Source: Aquisphaera giovannonii
Lineage (GTDB): Bacteria; Planctomycetota; Planctomycetia; Isosphaerales; Isosphaeraceae
Length of the DNA: 64,000 nt
Reading direction: 5' to 3'
Assembly: GCF_008087625.1 (NCBI RefSeq)
Contig: NZ_CP042997.1
Location: 7,874,001 to 7,938,000 of the forward strand
Position 1 is the first letter of the stretch, and the number at the start of each line of letters is the position of its first letter. The translations under genes and the position numbers were made by a program. The notes under the pieces are model-generated. The model saw only the letters and a program-made list of their open reading frames with translations. It had not been told where the DNA came from and did not search any database. Below are positions 591 through 18,009 of this stretch, piece after piece.

Positions 591-1792
591 GGCCGGTGGC
601 TCCTGGACGCGTCGGAGAGCAGGACCGTGCTGTGCGCCAGGACCTTCGCCCCGACGGTCAGCGCCCGCTCGTCGATGTCGAACTGGGGCGAGTGGAGGAA
701 CGGCGACGGCTTGCCGGGCCCGGCCACGCCCAGCCGGAGGAGGCAGCCCGGCGCGTGCTTGAGATACCCGGAGAAGTCCTCGCCGCCCATGCTCGGCAGC
801 GGGATCTCCTCGACGTTCGCCGGGCCGACGACCTCGCCGGCGGCGCGGATGCAGGCCCGAGTCACCTCCGGGTCGTTGACGACCGCGTCGGTCCCCCGGC
901 GGAACTCGACCTCGATCACGGCGCCGCTGGCCTCGGTCAGGCCGAAGGCGATCTGCTTGATCCGCTCGGCCACGCGGCCGGCCGAGGCCTCGCTGAGCGT
1001 CCGGATCGTCCCCTTCAGCACGACGTATTCCGGGATGATGTTGGCGCTCGTGCCCCCCTGGATCGAGCCGAAGGTCACGACCACCGGGTCGCGGGAGTCC
1101 ACCGAGCGGGGCACGAACTGGTAGACGCTCGTGATGAACTGGCTGGCCACGCCGATCGGGTCGATGGACTGGTGCGGCCGCGCAGCATGGCCGCCCATGC
1201 CCTGGATGATGACCTGGAGCTCCTGGCAGAACGCCGTGAGCACCCCCTGGCGGTAGGCGAGATAGCCGAGCCTGACCGTCGGGTCGACGTGGAGCGCGAC
1301 GACCGCCGAGACCCGCTCCATCGCGCCGGCCGCGACCATCTCCAGGGCCCCCGCGCCGATCTCCTCCGCGGGCTGGAAGATCGCCCGCCAGGGGATGTCG
1401 CCCGGCAGCAGGCCCCGGCACTCGTGCAGCGCGAGCGACGCGGCGAGCGCCATCGCGGTGTGGGCGTCGTGGCCGCAGGCGTGCATCACGCCTTCCCGCG
1501 TCGACCGGTACGGCGTCTCCTTGGCGTCGTGGATCCGCAGGGCGTCGATGTCGGCCCGGAAGGCGACGAGCGAATGGCCGTCCTCCGGCTGGGGCCCGGC
1601 GACGAGCCCCCGGCCCGTGGGGGCGATCTTCACGGGGATGCCGGCCTCTTGGAGCCTGTCGGCGAGGAACCGGGTCGTCTGGAACTCCTCCTTGCTCGGC
1701 TCGGGGTGGGCATGCAGCCGCCTCCGGACGTCGCGGATCTCGTCCCCGTGCCCGTCGATCCACGCGTCGATCGCCTCGCGCCAGTCCGCCAT
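587..1792 (-). CDS. M20 family metal-dependent amidohydrolase
   Basis: The 401-residue protein is full length for the M20D/hippurate hydrolase group, which hydrolyses N-acyl amino acids or similar amides with a two-metal centre. Visible motifs are AFRADIDALRI, HACGHDAHTAM (metal-binding Cys/His/Asp), FQPAEEIGAGA (Glu-Glu catalytic pair) and MGGEDFSGYL near the C-terminus. The central dimerisation domain includes GMGGHAARPH. There is no signal peptide, so it is cytoplasmic. It overlaps the downstream carboxylate-amine ligase by four bases, so the two are probably one operon. The exact acyl-amino-acid substrate is unknown. Confidence 0.92.
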   Translation of the reverse strand: MADWREAIDAWIDGHGDEIRDVRRRLHAHPEPSKEEFQTTRFLADRLQEAGIPVKIAPTGRGLVAGPQPEDGHSLVAFRADIDALRIHDAKETPYRSTREGVMHACGHDAHTAMALAASLALHECRGLLPGDIPWRAIFQPAEEIGAGALEMVAAGAMERVSAVVALHVDPTVRLGYLAYRQGVLTAFCQELQVIIQGMGGHAARPHQSIDPIGVASQFITSVYQFVPRSVDSRDPVVVTFGSIQGGTSANIIPEYVVLKGTIRTLSEASAGRVAERIKQIAFGLTEASGAVIEVEFRRGTDAVVNDPEVTRACIRAAGEVVGPANVEEIPLPSMGGEDFSGYLKHAPGCLLRLGVAGPGKPSPFLHSPQFDIDERALTVGAKVLAHSTVLLSDASRSHRP

Positions 1793-1883
1793 CGTCCCGA
1801 TTGCCCCCCTCGGCTCGGAGCCCCGTCTCCCCAGGGCCCAATTCTATGAAGTCATGGGAGCGCGCGGGAAGGACTCGCCTTCC

Positions 1884-2222
1884 TCATCCGTCGAGCCAAC
1901 GGTCCCAGAGGGGCTCGCCCCGGGGGTCCGAGGTGCGGCCCCGCCCGCCCGTCGCGGGAGGCATGGGCCCGCCCGCACCCAGCCAGGACGTGAGGCGGAG
2001 GGCCAGGCGCAAGGAGAACCAGCCGGCGACGAGGAGGATCGCGGAGCCCATGCCATACCCGATCGGTCCTGGTCGCTCACGCCGGGGGAAGATGAAGGGT
2101 GCCGCCAGCCCGCCGATGATCAGTCCCAGCCCGACGACGGGCAGGACCGCGGCGGCGATGGCCGCCCCGAGGCGGATCAGGGCTCGGGAGAACCAGCGGA
2201 TCAGGCGCGGGGATGAGCTCAT
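1884..2222 (-). CDS. Small two-helix membrane protein of unknown function
   Basis: The 112-residue protein has two clear hydrophobic segments, roughly residues 15-42 and 58-80, separated by a short basic loop (FPRRERPGP). The C-terminal 30 residues are polar and rich in Gly, Pro and Arg. I recognise no family. It lies in the same direction as the lipoprotein gene upstream at 2340-3152 and could be cotranscribed with it (gap about 117 bases). The main support is a hydrophobicity pattern typical of a real membrane protein; the opposite-strand ORFs here look like GC shadows. Confidence 0.6.
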   Translation of the reverse strand: MSSSPRLIRWFSRALIRLGAAIAAAVLPVVGLGLIIGGLAAPFIFPRRERPGPIGYGMGSAILLVAGWFSLRLALRLTSWLGAGGPMPPATGGRGRTSDPRGEPLWDRWLDG

Positions 2223-8408: not shown

Positions 8409-9692
8409 ATGCGGTTGGCCTTGAACTTCGCGCGGATCGATCCGTCGAAGGGCGGCGCGGAGACCTACGTCATCGACCTCTGCCGGAGCCTCGTGCGCGC
8501 CGGGCATGACGTGGACGTCTTCGCCGAGAGCTGGCAGCCGGGTGCGCTCCCCCCCGAGGTCCGCCCGATCCGCGTCGCCGCGACCGGCCGCACCCGCGGG
8601 TCGCGGATCTGGAGCTTCGCACGGAACTCCGAGGCCGCCATCCGGCGGTCCGACTACGACTGCACCGTCGGGTTCATCAACACCTACGCCCACGACGTGA
8701 TCATCCCCCAGGGGGGCGTCCACGCCGGCAGCCTGCGGGCGAACGCGCAGCGGTTCCGCAACCCGATCCTCCGCGGGCTCTACCTGCTGGGCAAGCGGCT
8801 CAACCCGAAGTACGCCCTGTATGGCGCCATCGAGCGTCGCCAGTACGCGGCGTCGCGGCGGGCCCGCGTCGTGGCCGTCAGCCACATGGTCCGCCGCCAC
8901 CTCCAGGAGCACCGGCACGTCCCCAGCGAGCGGATCCACGTGATCCCGAACGCAATCGACGTGGGCCGCGTGCGGCTCGAGCAGCCCGGCGCGGTCCGCT
9001 GCGCCTTCCGCAGCCGCCTGGGCCTGGAGCCGACGGACGTCGTCGGCCTGTTCGTCGGCCACAACTTCGCGCTCAAGGGGCTGCGGCCCCTCCTGAAGGC
9101 GCTCGCCGAACGGTCCGCGGCCGGCGGGAAGCCCATCCACCTGCTGGTCGGCGGTGGCGGCCGCGTGGAGGCGTACGGCCGCCATGCCCGGGCCCAGGGG
9201 CTGGGCGACGCGGTCCACTTCCTGGGATACCACCCGGACATCCGCGAGTGCTACGCGGCCAGCGACTTCTTCGTGCTCCCCTCGTACTACGACCCCTGCT
9301 CGCTCGTCGTCCTGGAGGCGCTCGCGTTCGGCCTCCCCGTGATCACCACCAAGCAGAACGGCGCGGGGGAGCTGATCGCCGACGGCCGGGAGGGCTACGT
9401 CCTCAACGCGCCGGACGCCCTCGGCGAGCTGGTCGCCGCGCTCGACCGCATGACCGAGGACGCCCACCGGGCGGCGATGGCGCGGGCCGCGGCCGAGCTC
9501 GGCGCGAAGCAGACGTTCGACCGCCACGTCGAGGCCCTCGTGCGGGTGTTCGAGGAGGTCGCCGCGACGCGCGACGGCCACGACTCGCACGGCCCTCGCG
9601 GGGGGTCGCGGCCGCACGGCCATCGATCGAAGGGCCGGACCGACACGAGTGGCTGTCCCGAGCGTCCCGTCGAACCAGGAAGGATGACATGA
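8409..9692 (+). CDS. GT4-family glycosyltransferase
   Basis: The start at 8409 (MRLALNFARIDPSKGGAETY) is preceded by a GGGGGACAGG stretch. The 427-residue protein has two Rossmann-like domains. The N-terminal domain holds SKGGAETYVIDLCRSLVRAG, and the C-terminal domain holds LFVGHNFALKGLRPLLKAL, VHFLGYHPDIRECYAASDFFVLPS and the EX7E-type motif in VVLEALAFGLPVITTKQNGAGE. These are the marks of retaining GT4 enzymes that use nucleotide sugars, such as LPS core transferases of the RfaG type. The last ~35 residues are polar and variable. It overlaps the nucleotidyltransferase gene by four bases (ATGA at 9689-9692). Confidence 0.9.
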   Translation: MRLALNFARIDPSKGGAETYVIDLCRSLVRAGHDVDVFAESWQPGALPPEVRPIRVAATGRTRGSRIWSFARNSEAAIRRSDYDCTVGFINTYAHDVIIPQGGVHAGSLRANAQRFRNPILRGLYLLGKRLNPKYALYGAIERRQYAASRRARVVAVSHMVRRHLQEHRHVPSERIHVIPNAIDVGRVRLEQPGAVRCAFRSRLGLEPTDVVGLFVGHNFALKGLRPLLKALAERSAAGGKPIHLLVGGGGRVEAYGRHARAQGLGDAVHFLGYHPDIRECYAASDFFVLPSYYDPCSLVVLEALAFGLPVITTKQNGAGELIADGREGYVLNAPDALGELVAALDRMTEDAHRAAMARAAAELGAKQTFDRHVEALVRVFEEVAATRDGHDSHGPRGGSRPHGHRSKGRTDTSGCPERPVEPGRMT

Positions 9693-10450
9693 GCAGGAAG
9701 GCAATACTGCTGGCCGGCGGCAAGGGCACTCGGCTGCGGCCCTACACCCACGTCCTCCCCAAGCCGCTCATGCCGCTGGGCGAGGAGGCCCCAATGCCCA
9801 TCATCGAGGTCGTCCTCCGCCAGCTGGCGCGGCACGGCTTCGACGACGTGACCATCATCACCGGCTACCTCACCGAGCTGATCGAGACGTTCTGCGGCGA
9901 CGGCCGCAAGTTCGGCACGCGGATCCGCTACCGCCGCGAGGTGGCCCCGCTGGGCACCGCCGGCGGGCTCACCCTGATCAAGCGGCCAACGCAGCCGGCG
10001 CTCGTCATCAACGGAGACATCCTGACGACGCTGAATTACGGGGCCATGTACGAGTTCCACACCTCCCGCGGCGCCGCGGCGACGATCGCCTCATACCCCC
10101 GCGAGGTGAAGATCGACTTCGGCGTTCTCGAGTTCGGCGACGACCCCCACGTCCTGACCGGATACCGCGAGAAGCCCGAGTATTCGTTCCAGGTGAGCAT
10201 GGGCGTCTACCTGCTGGACCCGATCGCGTGGGACTACCTCACGCCCGGCGAGGCCCTGCCGATGCCCGACCTGCTGGAGGCGATGCGGGGGAGCGGGCAC
10301 CCGGTCCACTGCTACAAGCAGAAGTGCTACTGGCTGGACATCGGCCGCCATGACGACTACGCGACGGCCAACGAGATCTTCGACGCCCGCCGCGCCGCGT
10401 TCCTGGGCGGGGCGGACCGGCCGACCCTGACCATGGGACGGGACCAGTGA
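9689..10450 (+). CDS. Sugar-phosphate nucleotidyltransferase
   Basis: The 253-residue protein is a stand-alone NTP_transferase domain. It begins MSRKAILLAGGKGTRLRPYT, the nucleotide-binding signature, with LPKPLMPLGE next. VINGDILTTLNY supplies the metal-binding Asp, and YREKPEYSFQVSMGVYLLD and KCYWLDIGRHDDYATAN follow. It is close to mannose-1-phosphate guanylyltransferase and glucose-1-phosphate thymidylyltransferase-like enzymes and probably makes the activated sugar for the transferases beside it. The base used cannot be read from sequence. Both ends overlap neighbouring genes by four bases. Confidence 0.88.
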   Translation: MSRKAILLAGGKGTRLRPYTHVLPKPLMPLGEEAPMPIIEVVLRQLARHGFDDVTIITGYLTELIETFCGDGRKFGTRIRYRREVAPLGTAGGLTLIKRPTQPALVINGDILTTLNYGAMYEFHTSRGAAATIASYPREVKIDFGVLEFGDDPHVLTGYREKPEYSFQVSMGVYLLDPIAWDYLTPGEALPMPDLLEAMRGSGHPVHCYKQKCYWLDIGRHDDYATANEIFDARRAAFLGGADRPTLTMGRDQ

Positions 10451-12270
10451 TCGGCGCGGACACTCCCTGGCTCCAGGACGCGCTGAGTGGGCTCGCCGGA
10501 TATCTGATCGGCGGGATCCCCTTCGGCTACCTCATCTTCAAGGCCATCCGGGGCGTCGACATCCGGACCGTCGGCTCCGGCAACATCGGCGCCACGAACG
10601 TCGGCCGGATGCTGGGCTTCCGCTACTTCCTGCTCGTCTTCACCCTGGACCTCCTCAAGGGCCTCTTGCCCACGCTGGGCATCCCCTGGGTGGTCGCCCG
10701 GGCCGGCGGCGAGCCCTCGCCGGACCTCGCGGTCTTCTCGGCCCTGGGGGCGATCCTCGGGCATAACTTCCCGGTCTATCTCGGGTTCCGGGGCGGCAAG
10801 GGCGTGGCCACCAGCCTGGGGGCGCTGCTCGCGCTCGACCCGGTCGCATCCGCCGCGGCGGCCGTCGCCTGGTTCGCGACCTTCGGGCTCACGCGGATCG
10901 TCTCAGCCTCCTCAATCGCGGGGGCGGTCGGATTCGTCGCGGCATACTTCGCCCGCACGCCCGAGCCGTGGAGCCGGGAGCGCCTCGCCATGAGCCTCTT
11001 CGCGATCGCCATCGCGATCCTGCTGATCGGGAGGCACCGCAAGAACCTGAAGCGACTGATGGACGGGACCGAACCCAGGGTGTCTTTGAGGAAGGGCCCG
11101 AAGGTGAACGACGAGAGCGACAAACAGCCTCCCGCCCGCATCGTGCCGGCAGGTCTCATCACGTCCGGCGCCCTCCTCGCGGCCGCGGCGATCGGCGCCG
11201 GCGCGTGGCTGGTCCGGCATGCATCCGCCCCCATCGAGGTCGCGGCGGGACCGCTATCCTTGCGGGAGGCCCACCGCGAGCTGACCGGGCAGCAGCGGAC
11301 CACGCGGGTCCGGTTCGCGAACGACGGCGAGATGCTCGCCGTGATGTGCCCTCGATACAACAAGGTCCTCGTCTATCGCGTGGACGAGTCGCTGAGGACG
11401 GAATCCGGGGTGGAGATCGCCCTCGACGGCCGCCCGGTCGCCATCGCCACCGAGGGGGACGTGCTCCGCGTCCTCCAGCGCCCGCCGGGCGACGACAAGC
11501 ACCTGGGCCCCGGCTGGTGGGAGTGCTTCGCGCTCGACGGTGCGAGGAGAGGACCGCGCGTCCCCGCCGGGTACTACCCCGACGACCTGGCGGTCACCCC
11601 CGACGGGCGCTTCGCCCTGGTCCTCAGCTCGGGCCGCGCCGAGGGCGATGCGACGAAGCCCTCGCCCCGCCTCGAGGTCTTCGACCTCGCCTCGAGGGCC
11701 GACCATGGCGACGCCCCCTCCCCGGCCGGCCGGCTCGACCTCGACCCGGCGGACGACCCCGATCGGCTGGTCCTGTCCGCGAGCGGCACCCGGGCCTTGA
11801 TCCGGCTGGCCCACGCCGACCAGGCGCTGGCCGTGGACCTGTCCCGGCCCGCCGAGCCGAAGCTCGTCGGACGGAGCGCCGTGAACACGAGCGGCGCCCC
11901 GTACCTCTCGAGGGGGCCGGACGGCGACTCGATCCTGATGCCGGGCTCGCCCGAATCCGAGGCCATCGCGATGGAAATCCCCGGCCTATCCGGCGGCGTG
12001 GCCAGGACTGGCCTGGGCGACGCCTCCGATTCCCCGTCCACGGCGACGCCCTTTCTCGCGATCGCCCGCCCGGAGGAGTCGTGCCTGGAGATCGTCCACG
12101 ACGGCAGCCCGCGCCAGACGCTCGGCCGCTTCCCCATGAAGGGCCCCTTCAACCTCGGCGGCACGCATCCCTCCGGCCTGGCCTATTCCCCGCATCGAGG
12201 CCTCCTCGCCGTCGCGACGAAGCCCGGGACGGTCCACCTGATCGAGGTCCGCTTGCGGACGGGCCGATGA
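10447..12270 (+). CDS. plsY: PlsY glycerol-3-phosphate acyltransferase fused to a propeller-like domain
   Basis: The gene starts at GTG 10447 within the GTGA overlap. Residues 1 to about 205 are a complete PlsY acyltransferase (acyl-phosphate to glycerol-3-phosphate, first step of phospholipid synthesis): GSGNIGATNVGR, LDLLKG, ILGHNFPVYLGFRGGKGVATS and GRHRKNLKRLMDGTEPR are all present. A polar linker and one further membrane segment follow (about 228-252, GLITSGALLAAAAIGAGAWLV). The remaining ~345 residues have repeated short beta-type units (VRFANDGEMLAVMC, LAVTPDGRFALVLSSG, LAYSPHRGLLAVATKPG) like an LVIVD/WD-type propeller. Typical PlsY is about 200 residues, so the tail of 400 is unusual. 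Confidence 0.88.
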   Translation: MIGADTPWLQDALSGLAGYLIGGIPFGYLIFKAIRGVDIRTVGSGNIGATNVGRMLGFRYFLLVFTLDLLKGLLPTLGIPWVVARAGGEPSPDLAVFSALGAILGHNFPVYLGFRGGKGVATSLGALLALDPVASAAAAVAWFATFGLTRIVSASSIAGAVGFVAAYFARTPEPWSRERLAMSLFAIAIAILLIGRHRKNLKRLMDGTEPRVSLRKGPKVNDESDKQPPARIVPAGLITSGALLAAAAIGAGAWLVRHASAPIEVAAGPLSLREAHRELTGQQRTTRVRFANDGEMLAVMCPRYNKVLVYRVDESLRTESGVEIALDGRPVAIATEGDVLRVLQRPPGDDKHLGPGWWECFALDGARRGPRVPAGYYPDDLAVTPDGRFALVLSSGRAEGDATKPSPRLEVFDLASRADHGDAPSPAGRLDLDPADDPDRLVLSASGTRALIRLAHADQALAVDLSRPAEPKLVGRSAVNTSGAPYLSRGPDGDSILMPGSPESEAIAMEIPGLSGGVARTGLGDASDSPSTATPFLAIARPEESCLEIVHDGSPRQTLGRFPMKGPFNLGGTHPSGLAYSPHRGLLAVATKPGTVHLIEVRLRTGR

Positions 12271-17619: not shown

Positions 17620-18009
17620 GACCGGGTAGCTCAGTCGGTAGAGCAACGGACTTCGCGCGGCGATCGCGCCGCGAGGGAGCCTCGCGCGGGAAGACGCGGA
17701 ACCGCGACGAGTGGATGCCGCAGTATGCTGGGACGCCCTGAGAGCCCTCGCACCACAACGTGGCCGGCAACGGCGAGCGTGACGGTTTGAGAAGCGAGGG
17801 ATTGGGTGATCAGCAGGCAAGGGACCGGCGGATCGTCGGCCCCAGCCCCAGAGACTAGACGCGGCACGCCTGCGATGGCGAAGGGATAGTCCAGACCTTC
17901 AACGCCCCCCGAGACACCGGCCCCCAGGGGCCGACGGCCGAGGGCGGTCGGCGAGAGCCGATGAGGTACGTTAATCCGTTGGTCCTGGGTTCGAGTCCCA
18001 GCCCGGTCA
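17620..18009 (+). tRNA. tRNA-Lys(UUU) interrupted by a group I intron
   Basis: The 5' exon is 17620-17653 and the 3' exon 17971-18009, together 73 nt without an encoded CCA. The acceptor stem GACCGGG pairs with CCCGGTC, followed by discriminator A. The D-arm is GCTCAGTCGGTAGAGC, the anticodon stem ACGGA/TCCGT, and the T-arm CTGGG-TTCGAGT-CCCAG. Joining after U34 and before U35 gives the loop CUUUUAA, anticodon UUU. Splitting so that the intron ends in G, as group I introns must, gives Lys. The alternative Asn (GUU) would leave the intron ending in C. The variable region (TTGGTC) is also Lys-like. Confidence 0.9.
17654..17970 (+). ncRNA. Group I self-splicing intron in the anticodon loop
   Basis: The 317-nt intron follows U34 of the exon and ends in G (17970). 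The conserved P7 core strands are present: AGAGACTAGAC at 17850-17860 and GGGATAGTCCAG at 17883-17894, pairing GACUA with UAGUC. A hairpin of seven pairs (CGCGGCG/CGCCGCG) starts two bases into the intron and is followed by GAG, which can act as a three-base internal guide for exon CUU with the usual U-G wobble. This layout resembles the compact tRNA-Ile intron of Azoarcus. No homing endonuclease ORF is present. Confidence 0.9.

Follow-up and report, generated by a model that had tools for sequence, protein, structure and literature searches.

An ORF-less group I intron in the anticodon loop of tRNA-Lys(UUU) of Aquisphaera giovannonii and other Isosphaeraceae

The 64,000-nt stretch of the Aquisphaera giovannonii genome analysed here, hereafter called the window, carries a tRNA-Lys(UUU) gene whose two halves are separated by 317 nt, and this insert is almost certainly a group I intron without an ORF that removes itself from the tRNA precursor. 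Reading the insert as a group I intron, as the initial annotation did, was supported by the fold of 35 sequences, by same-site homologues that match the Rfam group I family RF00028, and by an empty site. The mechanism is known; the novelty lies in the host tRNA, in its breadth of occurrence, and in a P5a-d arm that sets the intron apart from the IC3 introns of tRNAs. With this intron, an essential tRNA, the AAA-reading tRNA-Lys, joins the hosts of bacterial self-splicing introns.

The interrupted tRNA-Lys(UUU) gene and its distribution in Isosphaeraceae

The two tRNA halves lie on the plus strand of the window on either side of the insert (Table 1), the 5′ half reading GACCGGGTAGCTCAGTCGGTAGAGCAACGGACTT and the 3′ half TTAATCCGTTGGTCCTGGGTTCGAGTCCCAGCCCGGTCA. 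When the exons are joined, ARAGORN calls the resulting 73-mer tRNA-Lys(ttt) with full stems, and this spliced product is a canonical tRNA with the anticodon UUU, the same as in the intact orthologues; the complete tRNA-Lys(UUU) that had been proposed from the two halves was therefore confirmed, and its coordinates were right. The 5′ half is the same 34 nt with which the intact tRNA-Lys begins in the intronless relatives (loci L069-L072). These loci belong to four Isosphaeraceae genomes of one genus (G018, G031, G037, and G043), in which an identical but uninterrupted tRNA contains the segment ...GGACTTTTAATCC... and the empty-site junction reads ...GGACTT on its 5′ side and TTAATCC on its 3′ side. 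The downstream neighbour gene is common to the window locus and two of the empty-site loci, and the upstream neighbour to one; because of these common neighbours, the empty-site locus is orthologous and fixes the insertion exactly between U34 and U35. The intronless orthologues thus place the junction where the initial annotation had set a 317-nt insert with a last base G, between positions 34 and 35, and a terminal G (omega-G) precedes the 3′ exon in all intron copies read.

A search of related genomes for the same site found homologous introns in 36 of 45 Isosphaeraceae genomes, so the insert is not a product of chance. Singulisphaera acidiphila, Tautonia sociabilis, Paludisphaera soli, and Aquisphaera insulae are among the named carriers. 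By the genome set used, some contigs that bear the title Candidatus Kuenenia also count as Isosphaeraceae. In many Isosphaeraceae genera the interrupted tRNA has the same downstream neighbour gene, which also adjoins the empty site. Because this neighbour is kept beside the intron-bearing tRNA in so many genera, the pattern fits vertical inheritance, with loss (or initial absence) in one genus. In Isosphaeraceae the intron is an old resident of a conserved chromosomal locus; a search of plasmids returned no match to it. Occupied and exactly empty sites occur within this one family, whose cultured genera include Singulisphaera, Tautonia, Paludisphaera, and Aquisphaera, and the family offers a means of asking whether the splicing of a single tRNA is under regulation or sets a limit to growth.

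Intact tRNA-Lys(UUU) genes were sought with the pattern AGAGC-N6-CTTTTAA, which would overlook tRNAs of atypical sequence and genes left out of the assemblies. The pattern occurs in all four empty-site genomes and in only two of the 36 carriers: in the window genome it belongs to a tRNA of an array, and in G032 ARAGORN calls no tRNA there. By pattern search and ARAGORN, no intact canonical tRNA-Lys(UUU) was found in 35 of the 36 carriers. Since no intact canonical copy is found there, decoding of AAA appears, from gene content, to depend on splicing in most carriers. The earlier argument, that a sole UUU tRNA gene would make AAA decoding depend on splicing, agrees with these 35 carriers, but its premise of a single gene fails in the window genome. 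There the intron-bearing gene is the only canonical one, yet two dense tRNA arrays, with 23 and 20 genes, contain two further UUU tRNAs, one meeting the AGAGC pattern and one without the AGAGC motif (by an anticodon census of the retrieved tRNA loci). The two arrays (L084, C1:3084400-3087800; L085, C1:6718100-6721200) span ~3 kb each, cover most amino acids with tRNAs of atypical sequence, and hold one UUU tRNA each.

The array tRNAs could be taken to mean that the insertion has inactivated the interrupted gene for good and that decoding is left to other UUU tRNAs. We consider this very improbable, given that the exons are almost unchanged over the 36 carrier genomes, that the pairs of the intron core are kept through compensatory change, and that no intact canonical copy was found in 35 of the 36 carriers. 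Still less probable is that the spliced product is a tRNA-Asn(GUU). This is what ARAGORN with introns allowed (-i) returns, as tRNA-Asn(gtt) with a junction between positions 33 and 34, one base too early, and the program run without introns does not see the interrupted tRNA in the window at all. Against it, the intronless orthologues have CTTTTAA and hence the anticodon UUU, only a junction between 34 and 35 agrees with the group I rules of a terminal G and a U.G pair at the 5′ site, and the window genome has separate tRNA-Asn genes. Standard tools thus miss or misname the intron-bearing tRNA-Lys, with ARAGORN reporting nothing or Asn and RF00028 matching nothing in the window copy, so that Isosphaeraceae genomes may seem to be without a tRNA-Lys(UUU).

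Group I fold, membership and subtype

Even with E=10 as the threshold, the RF00028 (Intron_gpI) model gave no match to the window copy, and homologues and covariation were used for this reason. In an alignment of 35 homologous genes (A1), a group I structure was assigned manually, comprising P1, P2, P3, P4, P5, P5a-d, P6, P6a, P7, P8, P9.0, P9.2, and P10 (Table 1). Across helices P1-P9, with the pseudoknot of P3 and P7 counted in, pairing extends to 95.5% of cells in the 35 sequences, a value biased upward by a structure partly derived from the same sequences; the two-sided changes, found at 28 pairs, are the stronger evidence. None of 500 shuffles reached the observed structure support, and when the partners were slid as a control, pairing fell to 31-44%. 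For the P3/P7/P8 core alone, 99.8% of cells are paired, with two-sided changes in each helix. Both P7 strands that had been picked out in the initial annotation (17850-17860 and 17884-17895) are present and keep their pairing throughout, and the three-base guide GAG that it had matched to exon CUU is conserved in every homologue. The single-sequence minimum-energy fold of the window copy gave a modest z-score of -2.1; such a fold contains no pseudoknots, and hence does not display the core.

Table 1. Features of the interrupted tRNA-Lys(UUU) gene in the window (positions 1 to 64,000)
Feature	Position	Strand	Observation
tRNA-Lys(UUU) 5′ half	17620-17653	+	tRNA positions 1-34; last bases C32 U33 U34
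Group I intron	17654-17970	+	317 nt; final base G (omega-G)
Possible P10 strand	17674-17676	+	Faces 3′ exon U35-A37 (17971-17973); first pair 35/35, weaker beyond; 78% of cells paired
GAG internal guide sequence (P1)	17677-17679	+	Pairs with exon CUU (17651-17653); U.G at splice site; invariant 35/35
P2 hairpin	17681-17711 (17681-17689/17702-17711)	+	5 of 9 pairs with two-sided changes
P3 5′ strand	17716-17721	+	Partner 17861-17866; 3 of 6 pairs with two-sided changes
P4 5′ strand	17726-17731	+	Partner 17810-17815; invariant, paired 35/35
P5 and P5a-d extension	17735-17807 (P5 17735-17738/17804-17807)	+	Two-sided changes in P5a, b, c, d
P5d	17763-17766/17771-17774	+	Capped by GNRA loop
P6/P6a	17816-17847	+	Structure of alignment A1
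P7 5′ strand GACUA, guanosine-binding helix	17853-17857	+	Pairs with UAGUC (17887-17891); 35/35 paired; two-sided A-U to C-G in 10 sequences
P3 3′ strand	17861-17866	+	Core test of P3/P7/P8
P8 hairpin	17867-17880	+	G-C to A-U in 8 sequences
P7 3′ strand	17887-17891	+	Core test of P3/P7/P8
P9.0 enclosing variable P9.1 and P9.2	17895-17967 (P9.0 17895-17899/17963-17967; P9.2 17948-17952/17957-17961)	+	P9.2 with GNRA loop
tRNA-Lys(UUU) 3′ half	17971-18009	+	Begins with U35; CCA not encoded

The Rfam check that failed on the window copy succeeded on its relatives. Among the same-site Isosphaeraceae homologues, RF00028 scored 57.2 bits (E 6e-12; cut-off 50) for L066, 42 for L057, and 38 for L063, and among tRNA-Lys introns elsewhere, 54.9 bits for the Microbacterium locus L167 and 48.7 for L176, against the same cut-off. 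Reciprocally, a covariance model built from the Isosphaeraceae tRNA-Lys introns (R1) detects planctomycete introns that RF00028 recognises independently (L117, 4.7e-15; L118, 5.9e-9; L122, 1.7e-8). Because of the RF00028-positive same-site homologues and these R1 matches, membership in group I is secure. The intron has the P3/P7 pseudoknotted core with P4, P6, and P8, the P1 guide with its U.G pair, and the omega-G. In plastids, the anticodon loop of trnK(UUU) is interrupted by a group II intron, but a group II intron, or a protein-spliced bulge-helix-bulge intron, is scarcely conceivable here, as group II RNA families have no match in the window or in the intron, a complete group I core with P3/P7 stands in their place, and bulge-helix-bulge splicing uses an archaeal or eukaryotic endonuclease.

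In the proposed pathway, which is the standard one of group I introns with two guanosine-dependent steps, GAG would pair with C32-U33-U34 to form P1 and so bring the U.G splice site into the core formed by P3 and P7; an exogenous guanosine held in P7 would cut after U34; and omega-G (17970) would then replace this guanosine, whereupon U34 would be joined to U35 to give the anticodon UUU. We infer both this chemistry and splicing in vivo from the sequence.

The subtype is less secure than the group. A 2025 survey (PMC11835236) describes the P5a-d arm as absent from IC3, and because of the covarying P5a-d arm found here we do not assign the intron to IC3; its P4-P6 region resembles that of phage introns. 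Subtype IA was not assigned because, on reading the sequence, P7 and P3 lie too close together to accommodate an insertion. No intron-encoded endonuclease was found in the 317 nt, in which the only overlapping ORFs of at least 80 aa run out through the exons, and the window intron was likewise not assigned to the mobile (homing) class, which is marked by an endonuclease.

Relatives in other lineages and phage

Searching 392 Planctomycetota genomes with R1 revealed one more clear tRNA-Lys case, in another family (G075, 223 nt), and the P7-P8 motif, sought in ~85,000 species genomes, turned up in 57 stretches. Elsewhere, tRNA-Lys(UUU) is the host in Microbacteriaceae (many Microbacterium and Agromyces), in an alphaproteobacterial MAG, and in a Berkelbacteria (CPR) MAG, the same position being judged from flanks or representatives and the MAG taxa being as labelled. 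In MAGs labelled as Chloroflexi (two) and Schekmanbacteria (one), an intron of the same type lies in tRNA-Arg(UCU), where it again follows CUU and occupies the same position. Besides its tRNA-Arg(UCU) intron, one Chloroflexi MAG has a group I intron (L178, 6985-7670, minus strand) that overlaps a match to tmRNA at the end of that match.

Relatives were also found in phage. On a 184-kb IMG/VR contig (L223), tRNA-Leu(UAA) and tRNA-Thr(UGU) are split after CUU by introns (8870-9703 and 10973-11718), and these tRNA introns encode HNH and PD-(D/E)XK ORFs; in a 2014 review (PMC3984707), phage introns were known only in protein-coding genes. Streptococcus phage Javan129 has a group I intron next to its lysin gene that matches R1 (E 8.9e-28). 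The P4-P6 region of this intron, including the P5 arm, is ~75% identical to that of the window intron over 96 nt, but the phage intron differs in its location in the lysin region, a putative intron ORF, and another 3′ core. Another IMG/VR contig (L224), which has an Isosphaeraceae-like tRNA-Lys intron, was not accepted as proof of a virus.

The exon triplet CUU is common to the wider relatives, in tRNA-Lys(UUU), tRNA-Arg(UCU), and the phage tRNA-Thr(UGU) and tRNA-Leu(UAA). Together with the endonuclease ORFs of the phage introns, this suggests that the lineage once spread into U34 anticodon loops by homing or reverse splicing. The pattern between phyla fits transfer, but the routes of spread are conjecture because the tree built from the intron cores (43 rows of 189 columns) is poorly resolved, with 5 of 40 inner branches starred. 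A broader proposal, to which we give an even chance, is that these introns form an unrecognised multi-phylum lineage with a P5a-d arm unlike IC3 and a P4-P6 akin to that of phage, specialised on CUU-bearing U34 loops, and fixed in most Isosphaeraceae as an essential step for the AAA-decoding tRNA.

Comparison with known tRNA introns

In the Azoarcus tRNA-Ile(CAU) intron, the insertion follows position 36, the exon triplet is CAU, the guide is GUG, and there is no P5a-d arm. It resembles the window intron in its compactness, its guide of three bases, and P7 strands of closely similar sequence, but differs in the tRNA, the insertion position, the exon and guide triplets, and the lack of the arm. 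The likeness to the compact Azoarcus intron that the initial annotation drew is only partial, since the window intron carries a P5a-d arm. The window genome has a second group I intron, which is of Azoarcus type (L116, 1456-1788, minus strand; C1:8672527-8672792; RF00028 55.7 bits); after correct splicing its host tRNA reads CAU (Ile-type, exon CUCAU joined to AAUCC) and is misnamed tRNA-Gln by ARAGORN. An intron of this type also occurs in G014 (L119).

Group I introns between anticodon positions 34 and 35, with the exon triplet CUU, are known in another tRNA. They share the site and CUU with the window intron, as does the phage tRNA-Leu(UAA) intron of L223, but sit in a different tRNA and are IC3-type without the P5a-d arm (PMC11835236), whereas the window intron has this arm. 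The tRNA-fMet introns, of Synechocystis and of a planctomycete (L122, found by both RF00028 and R1), are likewise group I introns of the anticodon loop; they differ in the tRNA, and that of L122 is much longer. This planctomycete locus (1431-2160, minus strand) has a 654-nt intron with a putative endonuclease-like ORF.

Published accounts mention tRNA hosts in general terms (PMC3984707), name fMet and Ile2 tRNAs as intron hosts (PMC8450103), and place archaeal group I introns in rRNA (PMC6125680). One paper (PMC5733544) describes inserts of 22-49 nt in cyanobacterial tRNAs, namely Lys(CTT), Gly, and Arg, as group I introns; they too include a tRNA-Lys host, but with another anticodon, and we do not accept them as group I introns, 22-49 nt being too short for any group I core. 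A search of the open-access literature brought up no previous description of bacterial tRNA-Lys(UUU) as host of a genuine group I intron, though a paywalled one is possible; the initial annotation, too, did not count Lys(UUU) among the known standard hosts.

Other planctomycete introns were also observed. A ~353-nt RF00028-positive intron (44.8 bits; L121, 1455-1888, minus strand) interrupts a tRNA that resembles tRNA-His(GUG) and that ARAGORN calls Pro, and group I introns are present in the 23S rRNA of several Planctomycetota (L120, L124, L125, and L128).
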